A stretch of 64,000 nt of DNA from Pseudofrankia saprophytica (GTDB taxonomy: Bacteria; Actinomycetota; Actinomycetes; Frankiales; Frankiaceae): NCBI RefSeq assembly GCF_000235425.2, contig NZ_KI912266.1:7308720-7372719 (forward strand), in the 5' to 3' direction. This document shows positions 21,029 through 37,847 of the stretch, one piece after another. Position numbers and translations under genes: made by a program. The first letter of the stretch is position 1. Each line of letters begins with the position of its first letter. The notes under the pieces are model-generated. The model worked only from the letters and a program-made list of their open reading frames with translations. It was not told the DNA's origin and ran no database searches.

Positions 21029-21072
21029 CCGCGGGCTTTCCGGGGCCCCGTCGAGCGAGGAGTGATCCGCGC

Positions 21073-22092: not shown

Positions 22093-22117
22093 GGCGGCCC
22101 GCCTCGGCCATGGCCGA

Positions 22118-22150
22118 GGATCTTCGTTCCGGCAGGCGTTCCGAAGATCC
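22118..22150. terminator. Inverted repeat GGATCTTCG ... CGAAGATCC
   Basis: Perfect 9-bp arms 22118-22126 and 22142-22150 with a 15-base spacer, between the end of the DUF2889 gene and the dyad operator. It may be a terminator of the upstream operon or a second operator. Confidence 0.45.
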
Positions 22151-22170
22151 AAACTTGTGTTCGGCATTGT

Positions 22171-22185
22171 CAGAATCGTATTCTG
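22171..22185. promoter_or_regulatory. 15-bp dyad operator, site 2
   Basis: CAGAATCGTATTCTG, perfect 6-bp arms, 26 bases before the GTG of the ACAD-kinase operon. Same family as sites at 17471, 34491 and 46263. Confidence 0.6.
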
Positions 22186-22211
22186 GCGAAGACGACCAGG
22201 AAGGACACACC

Positions 22212-23513
22212 GTGGCGTGGGACTTCGAGACCGATCCCGAGTACCAGAAGAAGCTGGACTGGGCGAACGAGTTCGTCCGCAGCGAGGTCGAGCCGCTTGA
22301 CCTCGCGTTCCCGGACCTGCAGTTCGTACCGCTCACCGACAAGCGCCGGGAGCTCATCGACCCGCTCAAGCAGCAGGTCCGCGACCAGGGCCTGTGGGCG
22401 ACCCACCTGAGCCCCGAGCTCGGCGGCCAGGGCTTCGGCCAGCAGAAGCTGGGGCTGCTCAACGAGATCCTCGGCCGCTCCTCCTGGGCGCCGATCGTCT
22501 TCGGCTGCCAGGCGCCGGACACCGGCAACGCCGAGATCATCGCCCACTACGGCACGCCGGAGCAGAAGGAGAAGTACCTCCGGCCGCTGCTCGACGGCGA
22601 GATGTTCTCCAGCTACTCGATGACCGAGCCGCAGGCCGGCGCGGACCCGACGCAGTTCACCTGCCGCGCCCACAAGGAGGGCGGCGAGTGGATCATCAAC
22701 GGGTGGAAGTACTTCTCGTCGAACGCCAAGACCGCGAGCTTCTTCATCGTCATGGTGGTCACGAACCCCGACGTGAGCGCGTACCGAGGCATGTCGATGT
22801 TCCTGGTGCCGGCCGACACGCCGGGCATCAACATCGTCCGTAACGTCGGCCTTTTCGGCGAGCCACTGGGCGAGGGCTTCCACGCGCTCATCCACTACGA
22901 GGACGTGCGGGTGCCCGAGTCCGCGCTGCTCGGCGGCGAGGGCCAGGCGTTCGCCATCGCCCAGACCCGGCTCGGCGGCGGGCGCATCCACCACGCGATG
23001 CGCACCATCGGCCAGGCGCAGCGGCTGCTGGACATGACCTGCGAGCGCGCGCTGTCGCGCACCACCGCGGGCAGCAAGCTCGCGGAGAAGCAGTTCGTCC
23101 AGGGCTTCATCGCCGACTCGTACGCGCAGCTGCTGCAGTTCCGGCTGCTCGTCATGTACGTCGCCTGGGAGATCGACAAGTACCAGGACTACAAGCGCGT
23201 CCGCAAGGACATCGCCACGGCGAAGATCGTCATGCCGACCATCCTGCACGACATCGCCTGGCGGGCGATGCAGATCCACGGCGCGCTCGGCACCACGAAC
23301 GAGATGCCGTTCTTCCGGTACATCCACGGCGCCGCCGTGATGGGCCTGGCCGACGGGCCGACCGAGGTCCACAAGATGACCGTCGCCAAGCAGGTCCTGC
23401 GCGACTACAAGCCGGCCGAGGGCATGTGGCCGACCGAGTGGATCCCGGGCAAGCTCGACGCCTCCCGGGCCAAGTACGCCAAGTTCCTTGAGCACGAGGT
23501 GGGAAACCTGTGA
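22212..23513 (+). CDS. Acyl-CoA dehydrogenase, ACAD11-like
   Basis: 433-aa ACAD with SMTEPQAGADPTQF at the flavin loop, INGWKYFSSNA, and LADGPTEVHKM near the C-terminus. Asp replaces the classical catalytic Glu, as in ACAD10/11 and the 8836 protein. GTG start chosen because AGGAAGGA lies eight bases upstream and because the long open frame upstream is antisense shadow. It overlaps the kinase gene by GTGA. Likely substrate is a 4-phosphoacyl-CoA made by the kinase; side-chain length unknown. Confidence 0.88.
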   Translation: MAWDFETDPEYQKKLDWANEFVRSEVEPLDLAFPDLQFVPLTDKRRELIDPLKQQVRDQGLWATHLSPELGGQGFGQQKLGLLNEILGRSSWAPIVFGCQAPDTGNAEIIAHYGTPEQKEKYLRPLLDGEMFSSYSMTEPQAGADPTQFTCRAHKEGGEWIINGWKYFSSNAKTASFFIVMVVTNPDVSAYRGMSMFLVPADTPGINIVRNVGLFGEPLGEGFHALIHYEDVRVPESALLGGEGQAFAIAQTRLGGGRIHHAMRTIGQAQRLLDMTCERALSRTTAGSKLAEKQFVQGFIADSYAQLLQFRLLVMYVAWEIDKYQDYKRVRKDIATAKIVMPTILHDIAWRAMQIHGALGTTNEMPFFRYIHGAAVMGLADGPTEVHKMTVAKQVLRDYKPAEGMWPTEWIPGKLDASRAKYAKFLEHEVGNL

Positions 23514-24562
23514 GCGCCGAGACCGAGACCGAAACCACGCTCGACTTCGAGCGGCTCGCCGCCTGGATGGACGCCCAGGGGCTGCCCGGCGCGGGCGCCC
23601 CGCTGGAGCACAAGTTCCTCTCCGGCGGCACGCAGAACGAGATCTACCTGCTGACCCGCGGCGACTTCCAGTGCGTCATCCGGATCCCACCGGCCACGGC
23701 GCCGGCCGACCGGGACAACGGCATCGTGCGGGAATGGCGGATCATCGAGGCGCTCGACGGCACCGACGTCCCGCACACCGCCGCCGTGGCGGTCTGCACC
23801 GACTCGTCGGTGCTCGGCCGGACCTTCTACCTCATGGGCTTCGTCGACGGCTGGTCGCCGATGAGCATGAAGGACCGCAAGTGGCCCGAGCCGTTCAACA
23901 GCGACCTGGAGCTGCGCAAGGGCCTGGGCTATCAGCTGGCCGAGGGCATCGCGCTGCTGTCGAAGGTCGACTGGCAGGCCAAGGGGCTGCAGACCCTGGG
24001 CCGTCCGGACGGCTTCCACGAGCGCCAGGTCGACCGCTGGCTGCGTTTCTTCAACAGGATCAAGGCCCGTGAGCTCGACGGCATGGACACGGTCACCGAG
24101 TGGCTGCGGGGCCACCGGCCGCTCGACTACATCCCCGGCCTGATGCACGGCGACTACCAGTTCGCCAACGTCATGTTCAAGAACGAGGTCCCGGCGAAGC
24201 TGGCCGCGCTGGTCGACTGGGAGATGGGTACCGTCGGTGACCCGAAGCTGGACCTGGCCTGGATGATCATGAGTTGGCCGGACGACACGTCTGAACCCAC
24301 GTCGGGTTACGTCGACCTGCAGGGCATGCCCACCCGCGACCAGATCGTCGAGCACTACGCCAAGGTCTCCGGTCGCCAGGTCGACGACCTTGACTACTAC
24401 CTCGTCCTGGCCCGGTGGAAGATGGCGATCGTCCTGGAGCAGGGCTTCCAGCGCGCGGGCAGCGACCCGAAGCTGCTCGCGTTCGGGCCGGTCATCGAGA
24501 AGTCCATGACGGAGGCGGCCGAGTTCGCCTCGACCACCGACTACAGCTACACGGGGCGCTGA
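23510..24562 (+). CDS. APH-family kinase, likely 4-hydroxyacyl-CoA kinase
   Basis: 350 aa with the APH kinase fold: nucleotide loop SGGTQNEIYLL, VIRIPP in the VAIK position, Brenner motif LMHGDYQFANVMF near residue 213 and VDWEMGTVGDPKLDL. Only distantly like the 10026 kinase (different N-terminus and lid), so the two modules probably handle different acyl chains. Joined to the ACAD by GTGA overlap and followed one base later by the quinone oxidoreductase gene. Confidence 0.84.
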   Translation: MSAETETETTLDFERLAAWMDAQGLPGAGAPLEHKFLSGGTQNEIYLLTRGDFQCVIRIPPATAPADRDNGIVREWRIIEALDGTDVPHTAAVAVCTDSSVLGRTFYLMGFVDGWSPMSMKDRKWPEPFNSDLELRKGLGYQLAEGIALLSKVDWQAKGLQTLGRPDGFHERQVDRWLRFFNRIKARELDGMDTVTEWLRGHRPLDYIPGLMHGDYQFANVMFKNEVPAKLAALVDWEMGTVGDPKLDLAWMIMSWPDDTSEPTSGYVDLQGMPTRDQIVEHYAKVSGRQVDDLDYYLVLARWKMAIVLEQGFQRAGSDPKLLAFGPVIEKSMTEAAEFASTTDYSYTGR

Positions 24563-24563
24563 C

Positions 24564-25541
24564 ATGCTGGCGGCGGTGTGTGCGGAGAACGGCGCGCCGG
24601 AGGTCATCCAGGTCAAGGAGATCGACACGCCGCCGGTAGGCCCGGGCCAGGTCCGGGTCGGCGTCCGGGCGGCGGCGGTCAACTTCCCCGACGTGCTCGT
24701 CATCGCGGGCACCTACCAGGTGAAGGCGCCCGTGCCCTTCGTGCCGGGAAGCGAGTTCGCCGGCATCGTCGAGGAGGTCGGCGACGGTGTCACCGGCCTC
24801 GCCCCCGGCGACCGGGTGGCGGGGACGGTGTTCGTCGGCGCCTTCGCGCAGCAGGTCGTGTGCGCCGCCGACTCGGTGCGGCCCGTCCCGGACGGGGTGG
24901 ACGACCGGTCGGCCGCGGCCTTCTCCGTCGGGCACCGCACGTCGTATCACGTGCTGCGCTCGATGGCCCGGGTGCAGCCGGGTGACCGGGTCGTGGTGCT
25001 CGGCGCGGGTGGCGGCGTCGGTCTCGCCGCCGTCCAGCTCGCCGTCGCCCTCGGGGCCGAGGTGACCGCGGTGGCGAACTCGTCGGACAAGCTGCAGGCG
25101 GCCGCGGCGAACGGCGCGACGACGCTGATCGACAACGAGGCCGAGGACCTGCGGAAGGCGTTGAAGGTCGCGCACCCGGCGGGCGTCGACGTCGTCGTCG
25201 ACATGGTCGGCGGAGATCTCTCGGAGGCGGCGCTGCGGGCGCTGCGCTTCGACGGCCGCTTCGTGACCATCGGCTACGCCTCGGGGACCATCCCGCGGAT
25301 CCCGCTCAACCTGGTGCTGCTCAAGGGCGCGCACATCATGGGCTTCCAGATGCGCGACTTCGCCACCCACCGGCCGGACGAGCTGGCCCGTGACGAGCGG
25401 GAGCTCATGGAGCTGCTCTCCTCGGGGAAGGTGCGTCCGCACATCGGCGCGGTGTTCGCACTCGCCGACACGGCCGACGCGCTGCGGTTCGTCACCGACG
25501 GCAAGGCGATCGGCAAGGTCGTCCTCGACGTCGCGCCCTGA
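24564..25541 (+). CDS. NADPH:quinone oxidoreductase, zinc-independent MDR
   Basis: 325-aa medium-chain reductase of the quinone-oxidoreductase/enoyl-reductase branch: NFPDVLVIAGTYQ, cofactor motif GAGGGVGLAAVQ near residue 150, no zinc cysteines, GKVVLDV at the C-terminus. It reduces quinones or alpha,beta-unsaturated carbonyls with NADPH. Third gene of the second ACAD-kinase operon, where an enoyl-CoA or enone reduction is the likely job. The start is one base after the kinase stop. Confidence 0.86.
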   Translation: MLAAVCAENGAPEVIQVKEIDTPPVGPGQVRVGVRAAAVNFPDVLVIAGTYQVKAPVPFVPGSEFAGIVEEVGDGVTGLAPGDRVAGTVFVGAFAQQVVCAADSVRPVPDGVDDRSAAAFSVGHRTSYHVLRSMARVQPGDRVVVLGAGGGVGLAAVQLAVALGAEVTAVANSSDKLQAAAANGATTLIDNEAEDLRKALKVAHPAGVDVVVDMVGGDLSEAALRALRFDGRFVTIGYASGTIPRIPLNLVLLKGAHIMGFQMRDFATHRPDELARDERELMELLSSGKVRPHIGAVFALADTADALRFVTDGKAIGKVVLDVAP

Positions 25542-25959
25542 GCGGGACCGGTAGCCCTGTGTCCCCGGTGCGTCCGGCGTGGTGACACCCGGAACCGAGC
25601 TTGTCGCCGGGCAACCGGCGCGGCCTTTCTCGGTGTCGCGGTCTGAACCGTTTCCGTGGCATCGGGTTCGGTGGCATCGTGCGCCGCGACATTAAGCACA
25701 TATCATTTGCGCGCGACTACCCGTGACGGGATGAGGGCGCCCGGCATTCGCCGGGCGCCCCTTTCCGTTGCCTGACAGCGCGGTCGATAGCATCGACTCC
25801 GATATCGACGTCAATAGGAGATCCGGGGCCGCGTCATTCCGTGCCGCGCGCTCCGCCGTGACGCGGGGAACACCGCTCTCGGCGCCGGGCCTCCAGGGTG
25901 ACGGGCGCGAGGCTCACAAGGCCGAGCGGCCGCCATATCTCCAGAGGAGTTTCCCCGCA
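25542..25959. other. 418-bp gap before the binding-protein array
   Basis: Holds a strong hairpin at 25735-25760, an AT-rich stretch (25690-25712, with CATATCATTTG) that could be a promoter, and a leader ending in AGAGGAG before the ATG at 25960. The frame of copy 1 is open back to 25768, but that part is unlike the signal peptides of the paralogues and is probably untranslated. Confidence 0.6.
25735..25760 (+). terminator. Rho-independent terminator
   Basis: Perfect 11-bp stem GGGCGCCCGGC (25735-25745) with 25750-25760, tetraloop ATTC, followed by CTTTCC. It ends the ACAD-kinase operon. Confidence 0.75.
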
Positions 25960-27252
25960 ATGTCGCTACCTCTTCGTCGACGAGCGTTGAGGGCCGCAGC
26001 GCTTGCGGCCAGCGCCAGCAGCCTGGCGGCCGGCCTGGTGGCCTGCGGCGGCTCGAGCGACAACGCAGCCGCCGGCACCTGCACCACCACGGCGCCGGGT
26101 ATCACGCCCACCGAGGTCAAGGCCGGCATGATCTGGAGCGACACCGGCCCGTCCGCCAGCAGCATGCGGGCCTTCCGGGCCGGCGTGGACGCCCGGTTGG
26201 AAAGCGCCAACGACGAGGAGGGCGGCGTCTTCGGCCGCAAGCTCAAATACGCTTGGCGGGACGACCGGGCGGACCAGGCGCTCAACCTGAGCGGCACCCA
26301 GGATCTCATCAACAATGAGCATGTCTTCGGGCTCATCGCGATGCCCAGCGCGAGCGGCTCCGCCTCGGTGGACTGGCTCAGCCGGCAGAAGATCCCGGTC
26401 ATGGGCCTGGCCAGCGACCCGAGCTGGCTGGGCAAGACCAACATGTTCTCCTGGTTCTACCTGGGCACCGGCTCCGCCACCACCTGGGGCAAGTACATCC
26501 ATGACCAGGGCGGGACCCGCGCGGCCGTGTTCGCCGTCGCCTCGAGCGCGTCCAACAACGACTTCAACCAGCAGTACATCGCAAGCCTGAAGGCCAGCGG
26601 CGTCCAGGTCGTCAGGACGTTCCAGACCGCCAGCGCGGTCATCAGCTACCCGAACGTCGCGCAGCAGATCAAGGCGGAGGACATCGACGCCATCGGCGGC
26701 GTCCTGCTCCCGGAGATGGCGGCGAACCTGCTGCCGGAGCTCCGCAAGGTCGGCCTGGCCCTCGGCGGGAATCTCAAGGTCGCGCTGATGCCGCTCGGCT
26801 ACGACGGCAGCAGCCTGGCGACGTATGGCACGTCGCTCGCCGGCGCGTCGATCTTCACAGCCGTCAAACCCTTCGAGGTCAACACTCCCGGGCAGCAGAA
26901 GTTCAGGCAGGCGATGAACACCTACTCTCCGGAGATCCAGCCGTCGACGCAGGACAGCGCGGTCGACGGCTGGCTCTCGGCCGACCTGTTTATCCGCGGC
27001 CTCAAGGAGGCCGGGCAGTGCCCGACCAGGGAGTCGTTCATCACCGGACTGCGCGCCGTGAAGGACTACGACGGCGCCGGAATGACACCACAGGACGCCA
27101 ACGACCTGTCAACGAACTACCGGGATATCTCGGTCTGCTACTACGCCATCAAGGTCAGCCAGGACGGAAGCCGGTTCGAGGCCGACAGCCAGCCCGAATG
27201 CGGCGCCCCGATCAGCCAGGAGCAGATGAACGCCCTGAACCAGCAGCCCTGA
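25960..27252 (+). CDS. ABC-transporter-type substrate-binding lipoprotein, array copy 1
   Basis: Periplasmic-binding-protein family 6 (branched-chain amino acid / amide / urea type), 430 aa. Signal peptide MSLPLRRRAL..., lipobox LVAC with Cys29, so anchored outside the membrane. The two lobes show TPTEVKAGMIWSDTGPS and RAVKDYDGAG motifs; the C-terminus ends in ALNQQP, as in all copies. The most divergent of the five (for instance MPSASGSASVDW where the others have YAPGGGRDSAK). Ribosome site AGAGGAG precedes the ATG. No permease or ATPase gene is near. Ligand unknown; family members bind small carboxylates, amides and aromatic acids. Confidence 0.9.
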   Translation: MSLPLRRRALRAAALAASASSLAAGLVACGGSSDNAAAGTCTTTAPGITPTEVKAGMIWSDTGPSASSMRAFRAGVDARLESANDEEGGVFGRKLKYAWRDDRADQALNLSGTQDLINNEHVFGLIAMPSASGSASVDWLSRQKIPVMGLASDPSWLGKTNMFSWFYLGTGSATTWGKYIHDQGGTRAAVFAVASSASNNDFNQQYIASLKASGVQVVRTFQTASAVISYPNVAQQIKAEDIDAIGGVLLPEMAANLLPELRKVGLALGGNLKVALMPLGYDGSSLATYGTSLAGASIFTAVKPFEVNTPGQQKFRQAMNTYSPEIQPSTQDSAVDGWLSADLFIRGLKEAGQCPTRESFITGLRAVKDYDGAGMTPQDANDLSTNYRDISVCYYAIKVSQDGSRFEADSQPECGAPISQEQMNALNQQP

Positions 27253-27287
27253 CGGAGTTACCAGACCGGTGCCGATCGGTCACTCCG
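27253..27287 (+). terminator. Hairpin after copy 1
   Basis: CGGAGT (27253-27258) pairs with ACTCCG (27282-27287), with inner ACCG/CGGT pairs, directly after the stop. No T-tract. Confidence 0.45.
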
Positions 27288-27380
27288 CGCGCCGCCCACG
27301 GGCGGATCCAGGGAAATTCCGCGTAACGAATCCGAAACGCAGGCATTTGTTTGCACTTCGGCCTCATGTGGATTAAGAGT

Positions 27381-27391
27381 TCACTACTATC
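27381..27391 (+). promoter_or_regulatory. Conserved TCACTACTATC block upstream of copy 2
   Basis: The 11-mer recurs as TCACTACTATC at 30594-30604 and TCATTACTATC at 32210-32220, each about 155-170 bases before the start of a binding-protein gene. TACTAT resembles a -10 hexamer, implying long conserved leaders. Confidence 0.5.
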
Positions 27392-27548
27392 AGCCTCGCC
27401 GGGAAGGGCCAGTCACGCCCGAACCGTCGCGCCGGATCCCCCTCCACTGGCGCAAGACAGCGGCTGCTATGGCGCGCGACCCTACCCACGCGGCAGATGC
27501 CCGCCCACCCAGACCAGTATCGCCACGACACGTCAAAGGAGACGCGAC

Positions 27549-28841
27549 ATGAGGTCGCCAGTCAGATATCGATTAGTGAGAGCGACGGCGCTCGCGATGA
27601 GCGCCGGCGGTCTGGCCGCATCCCTGGTCGCCTGCGGCGACCAGTCGGCCGCGGAGGGGGCGGGTGGGGCGTGCTCGACCACGACGCCCGGCATAACCCC
27701 CACCGAGATCAAGGCCGGGATGGTCTGGAGCGACACTGGGCCGGCGGCGGGGACCATGCGTTCCTTCCGCGCCGGCGTGGACGCCCGCCTCCACGTCGCC
27801 AACGAGGAGGACGGCGGCGTCTTCGGCCGCAAGATCACGTACGCCTGGCGTGACGACCAGGCGGACCAGCAGCTCAACCTCAGCATGGTTCAGGAGCTCC
27901 TCGACCAGGAGAAGATCTTCGGGCTCATCTACTCCCCCGGCGCCGGCACCCAGTCGGCAAAGCTCCTGCAGGAACGCAACATCCCCGTCACGGGCCTGGG
28001 CAGCGACCCAGTCTGGCTGGGGATGAACAACATGTTCTCGTGGGTGTATCTCGGAGACGGCTCCAGCACGACCTGGGGCAAGTACGTCCACGACCAGGGC
28101 GGCACCCGCGCGGGCGTCTTCGCGATCGACACGAACGCCACGAACGGGGACTTCACCCAACAGATCGTGGCGAGCCTGAAGGCGAGCGACGTCAAGGTCG
28201 TCAAGATGTTCTACACCGGCGAGATCACCAGCTGGCAGACCGTCGCCCAGCAGATCAAGGCGAACAACATCGACGCCCTCGCCGGCGTCCTGCTGCCGGA
28301 CGCGGCCTCGAAGCTGCTGCCCGAGCTCGCCAAGATCGGCGTCGCCTTCGGCGGCAGCCTCAAGGTCGCTCAGATGCCCCTGGGCTATGACAACAGCAAC
28401 CTCGACCAGTTCGGCCGGTCGCTCGCCGGCGCTTCCATCTTCACCGCCATCCAGCCCTTCGAGCTGAACACCCCCGGCCAGCAGAAGTTCGAGCAGGCGA
28501 TGAGCGACTACGCCCCCGAGATCCAGCCACCGACCCAGGACATGGCCGTCGACGGCTGGATCTCCGCCGATCTTTTCATCCGCGGCCTCGAAGTGGCCGG
28601 AAAATGCCCCACCCGGGAGTCCTTCATCGCCGGCCTGCGCGCCGTCAAGGACTACGACGGCGCCGGCATGACCCCCAACGCTCACAACGACCTCTCCACC
28701 AACTTCCGGCAGACCTCGACCTGCTACTACGCCATCAAGATCAGCAAGGACGGCTCGAAGTTCGAGCCGACCAGCGACGCGGCGATGTGCGGAAACGTCA
28801 TCAGCCCGGAGCAGATGGCCGCCCTGAACCAGCAGCCCTGA
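27549..28841 (+). CDS. Substrate-binding lipoprotein, array copy 2
   Basis: Paralogue of copy 1, 430 aa, signal peptide with lipobox LVAC (Cys29), same two-lobe family 6 fold and C-terminal ALNQQP. Besides the lipid Cys there are four cysteines (ACSTT, GKCPT, TCYYA, MCGN) conserved across the array, possibly two disulfides. AAAGGAG lies about eight bases upstream of the ATG; the frame is open back to 27351, but that part is not conserved. Much closer to copies 3-5 than to copy 1. Followed by a strong terminator. Confidence 0.9.
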   Translation: MRSPVRYRLVRATALAMSAGGLAASLVACGDQSAAEGAGGACSTTTPGITPTEIKAGMVWSDTGPAAGTMRSFRAGVDARLHVANEEDGGVFGRKITYAWRDDQADQQLNLSMVQELLDQEKIFGLIYSPGAGTQSAKLLQERNIPVTGLGSDPVWLGMNNMFSWVYLGDGSSTTWGKYVHDQGGTRAGVFAIDTNATNGDFTQQIVASLKASDVKVVKMFYTGEITSWQTVAQQIKANNIDALAGVLLPDAASKLLPELAKIGVAFGGSLKVAQMPLGYDNSNLDQFGRSLAGASIFTAIQPFELNTPGQQKFEQAMSDYAPEIQPPTQDMAVDGWISADLFIRGLEVAGKCPTRESFIAGLRAVKDYDGAGMTPNAHNDLSTNFRQTSTCYYAIKISKDGSKFEPTSDAAMCGNVISPEQMAALNQQP

Positions 28842-28857
28842 CGACCGCGAAGGCGAG

Positions 28858-28887
28858 CCGGCCAGCCCCTTGGTGGGGGCTGGCCGG
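28858..28887 (+). terminator. Strong terminator after copy 2
   Basis: Perfect 12-bp stem CCGGCCAGCCCC (28858-28869) with 28876-28887, six-base loop TTGGTG. Copy 3 has a decayed version of the same hairpin at 30438-30466. Confidence 0.7.
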
Positions 28888-29131
28888 AAAAATTCCGTGT
28901 ACATCTTTTGAGGGCCGGCACCTTCCGGCATCCCGACGGCCCAGTGAGTACCCGTTCACCGGTACTGGCGTATACAAGAGGAGTAAGCCGCCTCGGAACT
29001 GACGTAACGTCGCGCCTGGATCATCGCTCTAGGCGCAAAACGAAGATTACGTCAGCGCGCGGCTCTCCCTGTACGGCGGACACCCGCCCGTCCGAGCGGG
29101 TACCGCCGCGATACGCCGAAGGAGCCGCGGC

Positions 29132-30421
29132 ATGTTATCGCCGGCGAATAGCCGATTAATAAGAGCAGCCACCCTCGCCGTCAGCGCCGGTGGCCTGGCC
29201 GCGTCGCTGGTGGCCTGCGGCCGCGGGGACGCGAGCGCGGCGGGCGGGGCGTGCTCGACCGCGGTGCCCGGCATAACCCCCACCGGGGTCAAGGCGGGAA
29301 TGGTGTTCAGCGACACCGGGCCGGGAGCCGCGACCCTGCACGCGTTCAGGGCCGGGGTGGACGCCCGTTTCCACTTCGCCAACGAGGAGGACGGCGGCGT
29401 CTACGGCCGCAAGATCACCTATGCCTGGCGTGACGACGGAGCAGACCCGGCACTCAACGTGCCCAGGGTGCAGGAGCTCCTCGACCAGGAGAAGATCTTC
29501 GGGCTCATCTACGCCCCCGGCGGGGGCAGGGACTCCGCCAAGCTCCTGCAGCAGCGCAACGTGCCGGTCACGGGCCTCGCCAGCGACCCGGTCTGGCTTG
29601 GGTTGAACAACATGTTCTCGTGGTTCTACCTCGGGGACGGCTCCAGCACGACGATGGGCAAGTACATCCACGACCAGGGCGGCTCCCGCGCGGCCGTCTT
29701 CGCCATCGGCAGCACCTCCTCCAGCGGGGACTACACCCAGCAGGTCGTGGCAAGCCTGAAGGCGAACAACGTCCAGGTCGTCAAGACCTTCGCCACCAGC
29801 CAGATCACCAGCTTTCAGACCGTCGCCGCGCAGATCAAGGCCGCCGGCATCGACACCCTCGCCGGCGTCCTGCTACCGGACGCGGCCGCCAAGCTGCTCC
29901 CCGAGCTCGCCAAGATCGGCGTCACCATCGGCGGCAGTCTCAAGGTCGCCGTGATGCCCCTCGGGTACGACAACAACGTCCTCACCCAGTACGGCCCCGC
30001 GCTCGCCGGCGCCTCCATCATCACCTCCGTCCAGCCCTTCGAGCTGAACACCCCCGGCCAGCAGAAGTTCGAGCAGGCGATGAGCAACTACGCCCCCGAG
30101 ATCCAGCCACCGACCCAGGACCAGGCGGTGAACGGCTGGATCTCCGCCGACCTGTTCATCCGTGGCCTGCAGGCGGCGGGACAATGCCCGAGCAGGGAGT
30201 CGTTCATCGCGGGCCTGCGCGCCGTCAAGGACTACGACGGCGCGGGCATGACCCCCGACGCCAGCAACGACCTGTCCACCAACTTCCGCCAGACCTCCAC
30301 CTGCTACTACGCAATCAAGATCAGTAAGGACGGCTCGAAGTTCGAGCCCGTCAGCTCTGCCGCCCTGTGCGGCGACGTCATCAGCCCGGAGCAGCTGGCT
30401 GCCCTGAACCAGCAATCCTGA
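29132..30421 (+). CDS. Substrate-binding lipoprotein, array copy 3
   Basis: Paralogue of 429 aa with lipobox LVAC (Cys29), AGMVFSDTGPGA, YAPGGGRDSAK, VKDYDGAGMTP and C-terminal ALNQQS. AAGGAG stands eight bases before the ATG, and the 75-base leader resembles that of copy 4 (CTCTCCC...TACNGCGG). The ligand pocket probably differs from the others at the NVPRVQ and TSQITSF segments. No transporter gene adjacent. Confidence 0.9.
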   Translation: MLSPANSRLIRAATLAVSAGGLAASLVACGRGDASAAGGACSTAVPGITPTGVKAGMVFSDTGPGAATLHAFRAGVDARFHFANEEDGGVYGRKITYAWRDDGADPALNVPRVQELLDQEKIFGLIYAPGGGRDSAKLLQQRNVPVTGLASDPVWLGLNNMFSWFYLGDGSSTTMGKYIHDQGGSRAAVFAIGSTSSSGDYTQQVVASLKANNVQVVKTFATSQITSFQTVAAQIKAAGIDTLAGVLLPDAAAKLLPELAKIGVTIGGSLKVAVMPLGYDNNVLTQYGPALAGASIITSVQPFELNTPGQQKFEQAMSNYAPEIQPPTQDQAVNGWISADLFIRGLQAAGQCPSRESFIAGLRAVKDYDGAGMTPDASNDLSTNFRQTSTCYYAIKISKDGSKFEPVSSAALCGDVISPEQLAALNQQS

Positions 30422-30437
30422 CGGCTCGGAGCAGCGC

Positions 30438-30466
30438 CCGGCCGGCCCCTTGACGGGACGGTCCGG
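30438..30466 (+). terminator. Imperfect terminator after copy 3
   Basis: Stem of 12 positions with three mismatches, loop of five, homologous in place and sequence to the perfect hairpin at 28858-28887. Confidence 0.45.
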
Positions 30467-30476
30467 CAAAGACACA

Positions 30477-30524
30477 CGCGGACACTCGGGACGCCGGCGA
30501 CCACCGGCGTCCCGAGTGTCCGCG
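30477..30524. terminator. 21-bp perfect hairpin between copies 3 and 4
   Basis: Arms 30477-30497 and 30504-30524 are perfectly complementary over 21 bp with a six-base loop CGACCA. It follows the weaker hairpin and precedes the promoter block of copy 4. Function may be termination or RNA stability. Confidence 0.7.
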
Positions 30525-30593
30525 GCCCAGCGGCGCGGCGCCCGATGGCGACTCCCCGCGGCCCGGGTACGCCGGGCACCCGCGGGGTGAGGC

Positions 30594-30604
30594 TCACTAC
30601 TATC
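30594..30604 (+). promoter_or_regulatory. Conserved TCACTACTATC block upstream of copy 4
   Basis: Identical to the block at 27381-27391 and, like 32210-32220, preceded by GGGGTGAG. A -10-like TACTAT spans 30598-30603, 161 bases before the start of copy 4. Confidence 0.5.
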
Positions 30605-30764
30605 GCTCGACAAGAAGAACCAGCTGTGCGCGAGCCGACGCATCTGTCGCGCTGGCCCCACCTCCGGTGCAGTATCGAGGCCGCGTCGGCGGGCGACTCT
30701 CCCGTACAGCGGGCGCTCGCCATTCGGGCGGGCAGCGCCGCGATGATGCCGAAGGAGCCGCGGC

Positions 30765-32060
30765 ATGCTGCCACCCGTCAGGAAACGATTAACCAGAAGC
30801 GCCGCGCTCGCGGCCAGTGTGGGCAGCCTGGCCGCCTCCCTCTCGCTGGCCGCCTGCGGCCAGGGAGGCGCGAACGGGGCGGGCGGGGCCTGCTCACCCA
30901 CGGTGCCCGGCATCACGCCCACCGGGGTCAAGGCCGGGATGGTCTGGACCGACACCGGGCCGGGGGCGGCCACCATGCGATCCTTCCGGGCCGGCGTGGA
31001 CGCCCGCCTCCACGTCGCCAACGAGGAGGACGGCGGCGTCTACGGCCGCAAGATCACCTATGCCTGGCGTGACGACATGGGCGACCCGGCGCTCAACGTG
31101 CCGAGGGTCCAGGAGCTCCTCGACCAGGAGAAGATCTTCGGCCTCATCTACGCTCCCGGCGGCGGCCGTGACTCGGCCAAACTCCTGGAGCAGCGCAACG
31201 TCCCCGTCACCGGCATAGCCAGCGACCCGGTCTGGCTGGGGCTGAACAACATGTTCTCGTGGTTCTACCTGGGCGACGGCTCCAGCACCACCTGGGGAAA
31301 ATACGTCCATGACCAGGGCGGAACCCGCGCGGCCCTCTTCGCCACGGCCCAGACCGCCGGGAACGGAGACTTCGCCTCGCAGATCACGGCGAGCCTGAAG
31401 GCCAGTGGCGTCAAGGTCGTCAAGACCTTCTACATCGGCCAGATCACCAGCTACCAGACCCTCGCCGAGCAGATCAAGGCGAACAACATCGACGCCCTCA
31501 CCGGCGTCCTGCTCCCGGACGCGGCCGCCAAGCTGCTCCCCGAGCTGGCCAAGCTCGGCATCACCCTCGGCGGGGGCCTCAAGGTCGCGGTGATGCCCCT
31601 GGGCTACGACGACAACAACCTCACCCAGTTCGGCCGCTCGATCGCCGGCGTGACCGTTCTGACGGCCACCCAGCCCTTCGAGCTGAACACCGCGGGCCAG
31701 CAGACGTTCAAGAAGGCGATGAGCGAGTACGCCCCCGAGATCCAGCCGCCGACCCAGGACCTGGCCGTGGACGGATGGATCTCGGCCGACCTGTTCATTC
31801 GGGGCCTCGAAGCGGCCGGAAAATGCCCGACTCGGGAGTCCTTCATCGCCGGCCTGCGTGCCGTGAAGGACTACGACGGTGCCGGCCTGACTCCCGACGC
31901 CAGCATCGACCTGTCCACCAACCTCCGCGAGACCTCGACCTGCTATTACGCCATCAAGATCAGCAAGGATGGCTCCAGGTTCGAGCCCACCAGCGAGACA
32001 GCCATCTGCGGAGATGTCATCAGCCCAGAGCAGATGACCGCCCTGAACCAGCAGCCCTGA
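30765..32060 (+). CDS. Substrate-binding lipoprotein, array copy 4
   Basis: Paralogue of 431 aa. Signal peptide with lipobox LAAC (Cys31), two residues longer than in copies 1-3. Conserved SDTGPGA-type motif reads TDTGPGA; YAPGGGRDSAK, VKDYDGAG and ALNQQP are kept. AAGGAG lies eight bases before the ATG. Differs from copy 3 mainly around FYIGQITSYQ and GVTVLTATQPF, both likely near the ligand cleft. No transporter gene adjacent. Confidence 0.9.
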   Translation: MLPPVRKRLTRSAALAASVGSLAASLSLAACGQGGANGAGGACSPTVPGITPTGVKAGMVWTDTGPGAATMRSFRAGVDARLHVANEEDGGVYGRKITYAWRDDMGDPALNVPRVQELLDQEKIFGLIYAPGGGRDSAKLLEQRNVPVTGIASDPVWLGLNNMFSWFYLGDGSSTTWGKYVHDQGGTRAALFATAQTAGNGDFASQITASLKASGVKVVKTFYIGQITSYQTLAEQIKANNIDALTGVLLPDAAAKLLPELAKLGITLGGGLKVAVMPLGYDDNNLTQFGRSIAGVTVLTATQPFELNTAGQQTFKKAMSEYAPEIQPPTQDLAVDGWISADLFIRGLEAAGKCPTRESFIAGLRAVKDYDGAGLTPDASIDLSTNLRETSTCYYAIKISKDGSRFEPTSETAICGDVISPEQMTALNQQP

Positions 32061-32209
32061 CGGACCAATGGTCCTGAAGGAGCCAACAGCCAGCCGGTTC
32101 CGGAACAGCCCGGCCGGCTCCTTGGTGGTGGCGGTCCGACGAAACTACGCACATCTGGCCCGGGGCACCGGCAAACGCCGGCGCTCCGGGCGCCCCGCGG
32201 GGTGAGTGC

Positions 32210-32220
32210 TCATTACTATC
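32210..32220 (+). promoter_or_regulatory. Conserved TCATTACTATC block upstream of copy 5
   Basis: Third member of the block family, preceded by GGGGTGAG as in copy 4. An in-frame ATG at 32228 begins eight bases after it, about where transcription would start, so a leaderless long form of copy 5 is conceivable. Confidence 0.45.
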
Positions 32221-32413
32221 CACGTCCATGACAGGACCCAGCGACGCCCGGGCCGACAGGTCGGCGCAGAGGACTCACCTTTTCCGGCGCAGGACCGTGA
32301 CCACGTCAACGCGCGCATCCTCCGCGCACTGTGAGCGCTTACCCGCCCAGGCGGCCACGGCCGCTATATGCCCGCGAAACCGCGGCCCGCTGTTACCGCC
32401 CAGCAATCGATTA

Positions 32414-33676
32414 ATGCGGGCCGCGGCGGCCGCGTTCAGCGCGGGTGGGCTGGCCGCCTCCCTGGTCGCCTGCGGTGGCGGCGGCTCGAACGCGGCGGGC
32501 GGGGCCTGCTCGGCCACGGTGCCCGGCATCACGCCCACCGAGGTCAAGGCCGGCATGGTCTGGAGCGACACCGGACCGGGAGCCGCCACCCTGCGCGCCT
32601 TCCGGGCCGGCGTGGATGCCCGTCTCCACGTCCTCAACGAGGAGGAAGGCGGCGTCTACGGCCGCAAGGTCACCTACGCCTGGCGCGACGACCGGGCCGA
32701 CCCCACCCTCAACGTTTCCATGGTCCAGGAGCTCCTTGACCAGGAGAAGATCTTCGGACTCATCTACGCTCCCGGCGGCGGCAGGGACTCGGCCAAACTC
32801 CTGCAGGAACGCAACATCCCCGTCACGGGCATCGCCAGCGACCCGGTCTGGCTCGGGATGAACAACATGTTTTCGTGGTTCTACCTCGGAGACGGCTCCA
32901 GCACCACCTGGGGCAAGTATGTCCGCGAACAGGGCGGCACCCGCGCGGGCGTCTTCGCGATTGGCGCGAGCGCGACGAGTGGGGGCTTCACGCAGCAGGT
33001 CGTGGCGAGCCTGAAGGCGAACGACGTCAAGGTCGTCAAGACGTTCAACGTCAGCGAGATCACGAGCTACCAGACCGTCGCCCAGCAGATCAAGGCGAAC
33101 AACATCGACACCCTCACCGGTGTTCTGCTGCCAGACGCGGCCGCCAAGCTGCTCCCCGAGCTGGCGAAGCTCGGCGTCACCCTCGGCGGCAGCCTCAAGG
33201 TCGTTCTGTTGCCGACCGGCTACGACGGCAGCAGCCTGGCGACATACGGCAGGTCGCTCGCCGGCGCGTCCATCTTCACCTCCGTCCAGCCCTTCGAGCT
33301 CGACACTCCGGGGCAGCGGAAGTTCGAGCAGGCCATGAGCGACTACACCCCGGAGATTCAGCCCCCGACCCAGGGCCTGGCGGTGAGCGGCTGGATCGCG
33401 GCCGACCTGTTCACCCGCGGCCTCGAAGCGGCTGGAAAATGCCCGACGAGGGAGTCGTTCATCTCCGGCCTGCGCGCCGTCAAGGACTACGACGGCGCAG
33501 GCCTGACCCCCGACGCCAGCATCGACCTGTCCACCAACTTCCGCCAGACCTCGACCTGCTACTACGCCATCAAGATCAGCCCGGACGGCTCGAAGTTCCA
33601 ACTGACCGGCTCCACGGCCACCTGCGGGGACAGCATCACCCCGCAGCAGATGACCGCCCTCAACCAGCAGCCCTGA
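32414..33676 (+). CDS. Substrate-binding lipoprotein, array copy 5, start signals eroded
   Basis: Paralogue with intact mature protein: lipobox LVAC, SDTGPGA, YAPGGGRDSAK, VKDYDGAG, ALNQQP. From the ATG at 32414 it is 420 aa with a short signal peptide (lipid Cys20). By alignment the ancestral start codon corresponds to CTG at 32390, and the GGAG of copies 3 and 4 is lost there. Alternatives are CTG 32390, GTG 32297, or ATG 32228 next to the promoter block (482 aa, long Arg-rich extension). The body of the gene looks functional; its expression may not be. Confidence 0.8.
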   Translation: MRAAAAAFSAGGLAASLVACGGGGSNAAGGACSATVPGITPTEVKAGMVWSDTGPGAATLRAFRAGVDARLHVLNEEEGGVYGRKVTYAWRDDRADPTLNVSMVQELLDQEKIFGLIYAPGGGRDSAKLLQERNIPVTGIASDPVWLGMNNMFSWFYLGDGSSTTWGKYVREQGGTRAGVFAIGASATSGGFTQQVVASLKANDVKVVKTFNVSEITSYQTVAQQIKANNIDTLTGVLLPDAAAKLLPELAKLGVTLGGSLKVVLLPTGYDGSSLATYGRSLAGASIFTSVQPFELDTPGQRKFEQAMSDYTPEIQPPTQGLAVSGWIAADLFTRGLEAAGKCPTRESFISGLRAVKDYDGAGLTPDASIDLSTNFRQTSTCYYAIKISPDGSKFQLTGSTATCGDSITPQQMTALNQQP

Positions 33677-33708
33677 CCCGGTAGCCGCCAACCCCCGGGG
33701 TTCGCCCG

Positions 33709-34398
33709 TCACCTCTCGGCGTGGCGGGCGAACCCTCCCGAGCAGAAGTCCCACACCTCGTCCGTCGTGAGCGGGTGCGCGCCCTCGCTCTCCCCCGCGA
33801 CCGCGGTCGACTGGGCGAGGAACATCACCGACTGCATGACCATCGCGGCCGCCCGGCGCGGGCGCAGGCTCGTCCGCAGCTGGCCGACCGCGTCGACGCG
33901 GGTCATCAGCTCCGCGAACACGCTGAGCATCGGCTCGTGCGCGGACCTGACCTCGGCGGGGTAGGTCATCAGCAGCTGCGTGGCGAAGTCCGTGAACAGC
34001 GGGTGGCGGGTGGACGGATCCGGCAGCGAGCTCTCGAACAGCATCCGGATGGCGACCTCGAGCCCGGTCAGCGGGTCGACCTCGGCACCCGCCGCGATGC
34101 GGATCTCGTCCGCGGAGCGGCGCAGGGCGTTCTCGAACAGCGCCAGCAGCAGCTCGTGCTTGCCGCCGAAGTGCTGGTAGAAGCTGCGCAGCGACTGGTG
34201 CGACCGGTCGACGACTTCCTGTACGGTGAAGTCGGTCGACCCCTTCTCCAGAATGATCGCCTGGGCGGCCTCGAGGAACTGCTGGACCTTGCGCTCCGCG
34301 CGCAGGCGCGCGGCCTTGGTGGAGCGCTCGACGGCACGCTGCTTCCAAGCCGGTTCCTCGCTCAGCGTGCTCACAGCAAGCTCCTGGTCGTGCGCCAT
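33709..34398 (-). CDS. TetR/AcrR-family regulator
   Basis: 229-aa repressor. Helix-turn-helix FTVQEVVDRSHQSLRSFYQHFGGKHELL spans roughly residues 56-85 and follows a Lys/Arg-rich N-terminal helix; the C-terminal ligand domain includes TDFATQLLMTYP. It is divergent from the ACAD pair at 34577, and the gap holds the perfect dyad 34490-34506, so it probably represses that pair and itself, releasing on an acyl-CoA ligand. It may also act on the same dyad at other promoters in the window. Confidence 0.87.
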   Translation of the reverse strand: MAHDQELAVSTLSEEPAWKQRAVERSTKAARLRAERKVQQFLEAAQAIILEKGSTDFTVQEVVDRSHQSLRSFYQHFGGKHELLLALFENALRRSADEIRIAAGAEVDPLTGLEVAIRMLFESSLPDPSTRHPLFTDFATQLLMTYPAEVRSAHEPMLSVFAELMTRVDAVGQLRTSLRPRRAAAMVMQSVMFLAQSTAVAGESEGAHPLTTDEVWDFCSGGFARHAER

Positions 34399-34489
34399 GA
34401 GTAGAACGTACTCCCCAGCGTGCGTACAGCCATGTGCACTCCTCGCCCCCCTGGCCCGCGGCGCCCGCGAGACCGATGCTTCCGTCTTC

Positions 34490-34506
34490 GGAGAATGTTA
34501 TTCTCC
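34490..34506. promoter_or_regulatory. Dyad operator, site 3 (perfect)
   Basis: GGAGAATGTTATTCTCC, perfect 7-bp arms around GTT, in the 178-bp gap between the divergent TetR and ACAD genes. It is the best copy of the shared motif AGAAT-N3-ATTCT. Confidence 0.65.
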
Positions 34507-34576
34507 ATCGGGTCCGGGCGGAATACCGTCAGGAGGCCCTCCGTGGCGCAGATTCCACCAACCGTCGGGAGCCGGC

Positions 34577-35635
34577 ATGCTCTTTGAGCTGGACTCCGAC
34601 CAGCAGCTGTGGCGCACGACCGTCCGCGATGTCCTCGCGAAGGAGTGCCCGCCCGCGCTGGTCCGTTCCGTCGCCGACCAGGGCGCGGACCCGGGACCGC
34701 TCTGGCGGACCTTCACCGGCCTCGGCTGGACCGAGCTGACCGAGGCGACCGAGGCAGTCGAGCTCGCGATCCTGCTCGAGGAGCTCGGCCGGGCCACCGA
34801 CCCGACGCCCTACCTCGCGACCATGACCTGGTTCACCCCCCTCGCGCCGGGCGTCATCTCCGGCGAGCAGTCCGGTACCGCCGTCCTCGACGGCGTCAGC
34901 GCCCACCGTGACCCGCACGGCGGCGAGGGCTGGATCCTCGACGGCACCGGCCATCACGTCCTCGACGGCGACCGGGCCGACTGGTTCGCCGTGGTCACCG
35001 ACGCCGGCGTGTTCACCGTTCCCGCCACCGAGGCGACCGTCCACCGCGAGAGCGTCTTCGACCCGCTGCTGCACGTCGCCGACGTCAGCTTCTGGCAGGT
35101 CAGGGTTGGTGAGGAGAGCAGGACCGGCGCCGACGTCGACCTCGCCCGCGACATCGCGCTCACCGGCCTCGCGCTGACCATGGCCGGTGCCTGCAAGCGG
35201 ATCCTGGAGCTCACGCTCGCCCACGTCCGCACCCGCGAGCAGTTCGGCGTCCCGATCGGCTCGTTCCAGGCCGTCAAGCACAAGGCCGTCGACATGCACG
35301 TGGCGATCGAGCGCGCGACGGCTCTCGCCTACTTCGCCGCGCTGACGATCGCCGAGCAGGACCCGCGGCGCGCCACCGCCGCCGCGATGGCGAAGGCGGC
35401 CGCCGGCGAGTGCACGACGGTCGTGTTCGAGACCGGCTTCCAGCTGTTCGGCGGCATGGGCTTCACCTGGGAGAACGACCTGCAGTTCGCGCTGAAGCGG
35501 GCGCTGTCCGGCGAGCTGCTGCTCGGCGGCGCCGACGTACACCGGGCCAGGATCGCAGCCGCGCTGCTCGACGCCCCCGCGGTGACCCCGGCGGCCAGCC
35601 CAACCTCGGAGGAGCACCATGCGGCTGCGGTTTGA
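34577..35635 (+). CDS. Acyl-CoA dehydrogenase, subunit without GGTxEIQ (duplicate of 6485)
   Basis: 352-aa ACAD-fold protein, a close paralogue of the 6485 product along its whole length (DVLAKECPPALVRSVAD, REQFGVPIGSFQAVKHKA, LFGGMGFTWENDL) but without that gene's C-terminal repeat insertions. The ATG has GGGAG six bases upstream; the open frame back to 34226 crosses the divergent promoter and is rejected. It overlaps the next gene by 17 bases, exactly as in the first pair. Half of a heteromeric dehydrogenase; substrate unknown. Confidence 0.88.
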   Translation: MLFELDSDQQLWRTTVRDVLAKECPPALVRSVADQGADPGPLWRTFTGLGWTELTEATEAVELAILLEELGRATDPTPYLATMTWFTPLAPGVISGEQSGTAVLDGVSAHRDPHGGEGWILDGTGHHVLDGDRADWFAVVTDAGVFTVPATEATVHRESVFDPLLHVADVSFWQVRVGEESRTGADVDLARDIALTGLALTMAGACKRILELTLAHVRTREQFGVPIGSFQAVKHKAVDMHVAIERATALAYFAALTIAEQDPRRATAAAMAKAAAGECTTVVFETGFQLFGGMGFTWENDLQFALKRALSGELLLGGADVHRARIAAALLDAPAVTPAASPTSEEHHAAAV

Positions 35636-36794
35636 CGACGACGTCGAGGCCTTCCGCGCCGAGTTCGCGGCCTTCCTCGACGCGAACCTGCCAGGCGTCG
35701 AGGAGACCACCGAGCGGCCGACCTCCACCGCGCACATGCCGGCGTGGACGAGGCGCTGGCAGCGGCTGCTGTTCGACAACGGCTGGCTGCTGCCGGGCAA
35801 CCCGCCCGAGTACGGCGGCCGGGGCGCCACGCTGCTGCAGCAGTTCGTCCACCTGGAGGAGCTGGGCAGGCGGCACGTCTACCACAGCTTCAACCCCCAG
35901 GGCCTCGGCATCATCGCCGCCTCGCTGCTCACGTTCGGCACCGAGGAGCAGAAGAAGCGCTGGGCGGTGCCGATCCTGCGCGCCGAGATCACGGCGGCGC
36001 TCGGCATGAGCGAGCCGGGCGCGGGCTCCGACCTCGCGGGGCTGCGCACCCGGGCGGCGCTCGACGGCGACCACTTCGTGGTCAACGGGCAGAAGATCTG
36101 GACCTCGGGCGCACACGACGCGGACATCCTGCTGACGTTCGTGCGTACCGACCCGGACGCGCCCAAGCACAAGGGCATCAGCGTCCTGGTGATCCCGACC
36201 GACCTCCCGGGCATCACCCGCCGGCCGTTCGGCTCGATCGTCGGCGCGGACGACCTCGACTTCAACGAGGTCTTCTTCGACGACGTCCGGGTACCGGCGG
36301 AGAACCTGATCGGCGAGCTGAACAAGGGCTGGCACGTCGCGAACGGCTCGCTCGGCCACGAGCGCACCATGCTGTGGCTCAGCTTCGCCGACCACCTCGA
36401 CGAGCTGGTCGACGACTTCCGACCGACGTCGGCGCTGGACCGCGACCGGTACGCCACCCTCGCGATGGACGCCCAGGCGCTGCGGCTGCTCGGCTCCGCG
36501 GCCCTGGCCCGAGCGTCGCGCGGGGAGGAGGACGTGGCCTCGATCTCGGTGCTCAAGCTGTTCGGCTCCGAGGCGGTCCGCACGTCCACCCGGCACGCGC
36601 TCCTCGCGCAGGGACCGGCCGGGCTGACCCGCGACAAGCCGAGCCGGCCCTTCGAGCACCTGAACCTCGACTGGTTCTTCGCCAGCTGGTTCGACCGGTA
36701 CGCGCGCAGCTTCTCCGGCACCATCGCTGGCGGGACGTCCGAGATCCAGCGCACGATTGTCGCCGAGCGGGTCCTCGGCCTGCCCCGGGGCTGA
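35619..36794 (+). CDS. Acyl-CoA dehydrogenase, FAD-loop subunit (duplicate of 7584)
   Basis: 391 aa, same length as the paralogue at 7584 and alike from MRLRFDDDVEAF to the final VLGLPRG. It has MSEPGAGSDLAGL and IAGGTSEIQRT; the classical Glu is replaced here too. GGAGGAG precedes the ATG. It differs from the first copy in the segment after LKLFGSEA (about residues 312-345), a region that lines the acyl pocket in ACADs, so substrates may have diverged. Confidence 0.89.
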   Translation: MRLRFDDDVEAFRAEFAAFLDANLPGVEETTERPTSTAHMPAWTRRWQRLLFDNGWLLPGNPPEYGGRGATLLQQFVHLEELGRRHVYHSFNPQGLGIIAASLLTFGTEEQKKRWAVPILRAEITAALGMSEPGAGSDLAGLRTRAALDGDHFVVNGQKIWTSGAHDADILLTFVRTDPDAPKHKGISVLVIPTDLPGITRRPFGSIVGADDLDFNEVFFDDVRVPAENLIGELNKGWHVANGSLGHERTMLWLSFADHLDELVDDFRPTSALDRDRYATLAMDAQALRLLGSAALARASRGEEDVASISVLKLFGSEAVRTSTRHALLAQGPAGLTRDKPSRPFEHLNLDWFFASWFDRYARSFSGTIAGGTSEIQRTIVAERVLGLPRG

Positions 36795-36836
36795 ACCGTC
36801 AGGGGCTGAACCATCGGCCCGAGAACATCGGCCGCC

Positions 36837-36869
36837 GGGCGCGCGAAGAAAGATCATTTTCGCACGCCC
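36837..36869. repeat. Palindromic element GCGAA-loop-TTCGC, copy 4
   Basis: Arms GGGCGCGCGAA (36837-36847) and 36859-36869, one mismatch, loop GAAAGATCATT. It lies just after the second gene of the duplicated ACAD pair, where copy 2 lies after the first pair. Confidence 0.6.
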
Positions 36870-36906
36870 TTCGGCCCACCAGCCGAACGGTCATGGGAGT
36901 ACTGAC

Positions 36907-37704
36907 TTGTACATTCTCTACGACGTCGCCGACAACATCGCGACGATCACGTTGAACCGGCCGGAAGCCGCCAACGCCCAGAACGGCGCGCTGCTGGAGG
37001 AGCTCAACGACGCCTGGGTCAAGGCGGCCGAGGACCCGGATGTGAAGGTCATCATCCTGCGCGGCGAGGGCAAGCACTTCTCCGCCGGCCACGACCTGAA
37101 GCCGGACCCCTCCACCCCGGCGCCGGCCAAGATCACACTTGAGGACATCTACCGGATCGAGGCCCGGCGCTACCTGGAGTTCTCGCTGCGCTGGCGCAAC
37201 GTCCCGAAGCCGTCGATCGCCGCTGTCCAGGGCCGCTGCATCGCCGGCGCGCTGCTGCTGTGCTGGCCGTGCGACCTGATCATCGCGGCGGACGACGCGA
37301 AGTTCTCCGACCCCGTCGTCGCGATGGGCATCGGCGGCGTCGAGTACCACGGCCACACCTGGGAGCTCGGGGCGCGCAAGGCCAAGGAGATCCTGTTCAC
37401 CGGCCGGGCGATCACCGCCGAGGAGGCGGAGAAGGTCGGCATGGTGAACAAGGTCGTCCCCCGGGCCGACCTGGACACCGAGACCCGGGCGCTGGCCGCC
37501 CAGATCGCGGCGATGCCGTCGTTCGGTCTTCGCCAGGCCAAGCGCGCCGTCAACCAGACCCTGGACGTCCAGGGCTTCTACGCGGCGATCCAGTCGGTCT
37601 TCGACATCCACGAGACCGGCCACGGCAACGCGCTCTCGGTGTCCGGCTTCCCGGTCCTGGTCAACCTCGACCAGATGAAGACCACCATCAAGTCCGCCAG
37701 CTAG
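36907..37704 (+). CDS. Enoyl-CoA hydratase/isomerase (crotonase family)
   Basis: Hydrates 2-enoyl-CoA or acts as an isomerase; 265 aa. Crotonase signatures: ITLNRPEAANAQN, oxyanion loop FSAGHDL near residue 65, and AVQGRCIAGALLL near residue 108. One of the usual catalytic Glu positions reads GGVEYHGH, so the reaction may be non-standard. The TTG start is supported by GGGAG seven bases upstream and by homology beginning there; the in-frame extension to 36757 overlaps the ACAD gene. It follows the duplicated ACAD pair, fitting a beta-oxidation step. Confidence 0.86.
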   Translation: MYILYDVADNIATITLNRPEAANAQNGALLEELNDAWVKAAEDPDVKVIILRGEGKHFSAGHDLKPDPSTPAPAKITLEDIYRIEARRYLEFSLRWRNVPKPSIAAVQGRCIAGALLLCWPCDLIIAADDAKFSDPVVAMGIGGVEYHGHTWELGARKAKEILFTGRAITAEEAEKVGMVNKVVPRADLDTETRALAAQIAAMPSFGLRQAKRAVNQTLDVQGFYAAIQSVFDIHETGHGNALSVSGFPVLVNLDQMKTTIKSAS

Positions 37705-37714
37705 GCGGTCCTCA

Positions 37715-37745
37715 GCGGCCGGCTCCGTCACCACAGTCCGGCCGC
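37715..37745 (+). terminator. Hairpin after enoyl-CoA hydratase gene
   Basis: GCGGCCGG (37715-37722) pairs perfectly with CCGGCCGC (37738-37745), loop of 15 bases. Confidence 0.45.
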
Positions 37746-37847
37746 GAGCGTCCGCGGGACGTCGTGGGAGTCCCGTCGGGCGTAGTGGGGCCATGGGAAG
37801 GTGCGACGGCCACGGAGGCGGTAGCGTAGAGGTCCGGAAGGCACGCC

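Follow-up and report, generated by a model that had tools for sequence, protein, structure and literature searches.

We analysed a window of 64,000 nt (the whole stretch of DNA under study, C1:7308720-7372719) from a host genome of 9.98 Mb in two contigs. Positions 25960-33676 of the + strand hold five consecutive genes for Peripla_BP_6 lipoproteins, i.e. solute-binding proteins (SBP). Copy 1 (25960..27252, 430 aa) is divergent and has orthologues in Pseudofrankia sp. BMG5.36 and P. asymbiotica. Copy 2 (27549..28841, 430 aa) has orthologues that are 90-92% identical, copy 3 (29132..30421, 429 aa) has a mosaic sequence, and copy 4 (30765..32060, 431 aa), for which we made an AlphaFold2 model, has orthologues that are 87% identical. 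Copy 5 (32414..33676, 420 aa from the ATG at 32414) is also mosaic and is lacking in P. asymbiotica. Its start might instead be at 32390, where the position aligned with the other starts has a CTG with a weak ribosome-binding site and no ATG, GTG or TTG; the BMG5.36 orthologue has a GTG start. Read from the sequence, all five proteins begin with a basic and hydrophobic stretch, a signal peptide closed by an LVAC or LAAC lipobox, and each has one Peripla_BP_6 domain. In a genome-wide profile search they scored 236-248 bits against PF13458, all above the gathering cut-off of 31.7 bits (copy 1: 247 bits, E 4e-73; copy 4: 243 bits, E 8e-72; profile positions 1-342). Such E-values (about 1e-72) and the conservation of the genes in relatives exclude a chance array. 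In full-length alignments, copies 2-5 are mutually 77-79% identical, against 64-68% for copy 1 versus the others. An earlier note on this DNA had described five tandem same-strand lipoproteins, each with signal peptide and lipobox, with four close copies and a divergent first one, and the reading frames, order, strand, motifs and identities agree with it throughout. It had also pointed to four fixed non-lipid cysteines. These are indeed fixed, but they do not mark the array: all 20 paralogues aligned from the wider family have them, which makes them a family trait.

A strong hairpin with a CTTT tail (25735..25760, + strand) is the probable terminator of the preceding operon and sets the array apart. 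The leader of copy 2 (27253..27548) carries a TCACTACTATC box about 167 nt before the ATG and an AAGGAG ribosome-binding site; across the gaps the box is partly conserved, and AAGGAG precedes most starts. The region between copies 2 and 3 (28842..29131) starts with a hairpin and holds the leader of copy 3, that between copies 3 and 4 (30422..30764) holds a hairpin with a perfect 21-bp stem and the leader of copy 4, and that between copies 4 and 5 (32061..32413) holds a GC hairpin and a leader, all on the + strand. Three of the four gaps contain a hairpin; the one between copies 3 and 4 (approximately 30477-30524) is the strongest fold in the region, and BMG5.36 has a similar one. About 150 nt of leader are conserved among copies 2-5 and dispersed relatives: single copies lie elsewhere, several with a recognisable piece of the array leader. 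Because the intergenic gaps span 290-353 nt, each gene may be its own transcription unit, duplicated together with the gene. A scan for sigma-70 promoters found none, and an Rfam scan of positions 20000-40000 gave no match. We considered a structured leader RNA and do not claim it, as consensus folding gave 9 weak pairs and -5.6 kcal/mol.

The array is part of a catabolic island. Its conserved left neighbour is a zinc-type (quinone oxidoreductase-like) dehydrogenase (24564..25541, + strand) and its conserved right neighbour a convergent TetR regulator (33709..34398, - strand). A meta-cleavage operon (1-4315) encodes a 3-(3-hydroxyphenyl)propionate hydroxylase-like protein, a hydrolase, a 2-keto-4-pentenoate hydratase and an acetylating acetaldehyde dehydrogenase, and the window also has acyl-CoA dehydrogenases, CoA ligases, a CoA-transferase and a PaaE-like reductase. 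The segment 38391-42182 (TAP-like hydrolase, histidine kinase and LuxR-type response regulator) was not found in the aligned segments of BMG5.36 and P. asymbiotica, and is probably an insertion into the island. Two adjacent similar proteins of 446 and 459 aa (49881-51221 and 51275-52654), with a hydrophobic start and no Pfam match, are conserved in relatives. No Liv-type permease or ATPase gene was found in the window, in line with the earlier note: the profile search gave no BPD_transp_2 domain in it, none of its reading frames is LivF-like or permease-like, and none combines a Walker A motif with an ABC signature. In Liv-type (HAAT) importer systems, the SBP gene is accompanied by genes for the permeases and two ATPases; here the nearest complete set is 39 kb downstream and non-contiguous.

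Orphan SBP are common in this genome, in which profile searches gave 102 matches to Peripla_BP_6 and 65 BPD_transp_2 domains. Among the 100 SBP places included in the count, 71 have no permease domain within 10 kb. The array family has approximately 33 members in the host genome, nearly all without an adjacent permease (28 of 33 have no permease domain within 10 kb), and in four relatives only 2 of 48 members have a listed permease on the same strand within 15 kb. Searched with an array-family profile at E 1e-80, 23 of 247 Actinomycetes genomes gave matches, representing 4 of 95 genera, all in the Frankiaceae. A plasmid search returned no close relative, the best match having 31% identity (Rhodococcus sp. 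YL-1). Given that dispersed close relatives adjoin unrelated genes, e.g. the ATP synthase operon, the family is not tied to catabolism. A family-wide tie to acyl-CoA catabolism was weak and we did not retain it (marker genes in 7/20 neighbourhoods versus 2/20 random ones, p=0.046). In another Frankiaceae genus, a family member is directly upstream of a fused LivHMG/LivF (locus L100), and therefore the array family can provide a Liv-type SBP. The search via L100 for a permease type dedicated to the family was given up, as in Pseudofrankia the counterpart lies near a different SBP of its own. A second large and mostly orphan Peripla_BP_6 family, the L089 type, has about 24 copies in the host genome. 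It includes a four-gene orphan tandem array outside the window (C1:4156593-4163292), whose proteins are 47-50% identical to the SBP adjoining a permease at G008:C9.

Close loci are found in Pseudofrankia sp. BMG5.36, P. asymbiotica NRRL B-16386, Frankia nepalensis CN7 and Frankia sp. AgB1.9, which places the host in Pseudofrankia. BMG5.36, with five copies, and P. asymbiotica, with four, show synteny over the whole island, and the dehydrogenase and TetR genes flank the array in all three genomes. F. nepalensis has three SBP after the same left neighbours, two of which begin with identical signal peptides, while AgB1.9 and an EuI1c-like genome (G001) have two SBP each at the array site. In the tree, copies 1, 2 and 4 cluster by position and not by genome, and a windowed comparison showed that their positional orthology holds along nearly the whole gene. 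The same comparison showed that the nearest relative of copies 3 and 5 switches along their length, which marks them as recombinant mosaics. In a triplet recombination test, 84 of 2184 ordered triples exceeded 1500 permutations, where about 1.5 would be expected if triples were independent, which they are not. This is strong, if inexact, evidence for recombination. Tandem duplication at a single fixed position in the island gave rise to the five genes before the split of the three Pseudofrankia species; copies 1, 2 and 4 have been kept as distinct orthologues, and copies 3 and 5 swap sequence with other copies.

We then turn to selection. Between orthologues, dN/dS of the array copies is 0.2-0.5 (0.09-0.41 for the flanking genes). 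Between paralogues it is about 0.2 for residues 44-186 and 296-400, versus 0.84 for residues 187-205, 0.67 for 206-274 and 0.66 for 275-295. Replacements are in excess in 187-295, a segment chosen after inspection of the data, among both paralogues (p=3e-4) and orthologues (p=4e-4). Lobe 1 and the C-terminal part are thus under strong constraint, and lobe 2 under less. The faster change of lobe 2 fits adaptive diversification as well as relaxed constraint. Variable sites are clustered (p=0.0002) in residues 187-205, 275-295 and 401-412 (copy 4 numbering). The earlier note had placed the differences in ligand-cleft segments, and this held in part: segments 187-205 and 275-295 overlap predicted cleft-side loops of lobe 2, but the enrichment over all predicted cleft loops was not significant (p 0.14-0.31), in a mapping that is approximate because it used the secondary-structure ends of a medium-confidence model and no coordinates. 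Similarly, the suggested selection for a set of receptors is borne out as a retained set with diverged ligand lobes, but not as positive selection, since dN/dS is below 1 in every segment (maximum 0.84).

The model of copy 4 (pLDDT 74, pTM 0.69) shows a two-lobed type-I periplasmic binding fold. The best PDB matches in a Foldseek search were the aromatic-acid-binding SBP 4evs (E 4e-19, TM to target 0.75), 4evq and 4q6w, and the actinobacterial fatty-acid SBP 4n03. The Peripla_BP_6 SBP of Rhodopseudomonas palustris that bind aromatic acids (4evs, 4evq, 4f06, 4f8j) rank with the best structural hits, but they share only 16-20% identity with the modelled protein, so that their ligands are not transferable. 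On the basis of the structure matches and of the catabolic genes in the window, our best guess is that the array receptors may bind aromatic or phenylpropanoid-type acids.

The BPD_transp_2 domain nearest to the array is found 39.4 kb downstream of it and 9 kb beyond the window. It belongs to a LivH-LivM-LivG fusion (967 aa) that is encoded together with LivF on the same strand as the array (about C1:7381707-7385371). Cognate permease and ATPase genes just outside and co-transcribed were to count against the reading of the earlier note, and this applies by half: such a set does lie just outside, but 39 kb from the array and with oppositely oriented genes in between. Searching relatives for the array and a shared permease, as had been proposed, recovered the array in BMG5.36 and P. 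asymbiotica, and LivHMG/LivF was located on the strand of the SBP genes, 34-50 kb downstream of them, in 5/5 genomes with both on one contig (the orthologues in the four other genomes are 83-92% identical). The linkage of permease and array may be plain synteny. In Pseudofrankia sp. G002, neither the SBP locus nor the permease was found at the cut-offs used. None of the five genomes has an intact SBP adjoining the permease. The host, BMG5.36 and P. asymbiotica have a gap of 1.26-1.42 kb upstream of it with broken SBP fragments, which resemble the intact SBP next to the permease of F. nepalensis (e.g. 54% over 72 aa and 58% over 45 aa). In the host this pseudogene remnant is at the window-equivalent positions 71621-72987, just upstream of the fusion. 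AgB1.9 and G001 have a gap of 0.5 kb with no SBP match, an apparent full deletion. Among these five SBP-less genomes the dN/dS of the permease is 0.15-0.26 (0.20-0.25 in most pairs), which indicates purifying selection despite the loss of its own SBP. Since a Liv-type importer would not be expected to function if it had no SBP, some SBP would have to deliver ligands to the island permease in trans.

The five genes encode membrane-anchored solute receptors with a type-I periplasmic fold, from a Frankiaceae-specific and almost wholly orphan branch of Peripla_BP_6. We propose that their ligands are small carboxylic compounds of the island, overlapping between copies, and that the receptors pass these in trans to one Liv-type ABC importer which they share; the leading candidate would be LivHMG with LivF, with its decayed SBP and conserved permease. 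We give this proposal about an even chance. The earlier note had suggested that the array might feed one distant transporter: a suitable SBP-less one exists, and its use by the array is possible. A simple cognate partnership between the two was weakened by the homologous permeases of sister genera, of F. nepalensis and of a second system in G001, which keep an adjacent SBP of the other family, the L089 type, to which the decayed SBP also belongs. The array may thus feed one or more other Liv-type permeases (the genome has 65 BPD_transp_2 domains), and the island permease may depend on the approximately 24, mostly orphan, L089-type proteins of the host, equally or more natural partners for it. 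Consistent with this alternative, one array-family SBP lies in a catabolic cluster on the same strand as another fused Liv permease, which comes with an SBP of its own (L102/L103). It is nevertheless the less probable account: no other permease is linked to the array by position or co-occurrence, and no SBP group but the array was seen in the conserved island segment that holds the permease. About as probable as this rival account is a bolder reading, in which an array of another Peripla_BP_6 family took the place of the SBP that the importer had lost, with copies 3 and 5 as recombining cassettes that would put new ligand lobes on a fixed docking surface.

Two further explanations seem unlikely. 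The receptors might sense rather than transport: when ligand-bound they would signal to a membrane kinase, or they would bind plant or root compounds at the surface. The earlier note, too, had considered sensors, for the surrounding catabolic island. Sensing has been proposed for orphan SBP (PMC5994714), and nearly the whole array family is orphan. Yet no conserved sensor is fused to the receptors or adjoins them, the aligned syntenic segments of the relatives lack the one set of two-component genes noticed in the window (40249-42182), and the fold of copy 4 matches transport SBP. Slightly less plausible still is a near-neutral amplification, in which unequal recombination grows and shrinks the array and the copies matter only for dosage. 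The variable copy number (5, 5, 4, 3, 2), the mosaic copies and the doubtful start or absence of copy 5 are what it would produce; but it sits poorly with copies 1, 2 and 4, which stayed separate orthologues through speciation under the constraint described above, with fixed differences partly in predicted cleft-side loops.

The claim that such an arrangement was undescribed did not survive comparison with published sets. In Rhodoplanes, SBP of the TTT family are massively expanded, mostly orphan, and sometimes in tandem arrays of 2-9 genes; like the Bug proteins of Bordetella, they resemble our family in being a lineage-specific expansion in which mostly orphan SBP far outnumber membrane components (PMC5994714). 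They differ in being SBP of tripartite tricarboxylate transporters of Proteobacteria, whereas those studied here are ABC Peripla_BP_6 proteins. TTT and Bug proteins are also soluble and periplasmic, not lipoproteins. Borrelia burgdorferi has five paralogous SBP, OppA1-A5, with shared permeases and diverged ligand cavities (PMC5736914, PMC7822543); three are arranged in tandem on the chromosome under separate promoters, but the five are experimentally studied peptide SBP with permease genes at the same chromosomal locus. The five SBP DppA1-A5 of Pseudomonas aeruginosa, of overlapping specificity, serve one importer, DppBCDF (PMC4206461); one is unlinked, but most are near the permease operon, and they belong to a dipeptide family. 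An early Frankia secretome paper reports many solute-binding proteins and, in the passages covered, mentions no tandem orphan arrays. Of the features of the Opp, Dpp and TTT arrangements, paralogy and a shortage of permeases are seen here, and delivery in trans may apply, as suggested by the permease that lost its SBP. What is new here is that these are ABC-type lipoproteins, of a family specific to Frankiaceae, with a nearby importer that lacks its own receptor.

Many bacteria have far more binding proteins than transporters, and the role of the orphan ones is an old question. A permease under selection next to a pseudogene SBP, together with a retained array in the same island, provides a concrete and testable pair. 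The proposed takeover, if true, would mean that a functioning ABC importer changed in nature to receptors of another family. Expansions of orphan SBP of the Bug/TTT kind also occur with ABC-type lipoproteins, in Frankiaceae, bacteria in which little is known about surface receptors for plant compounds.
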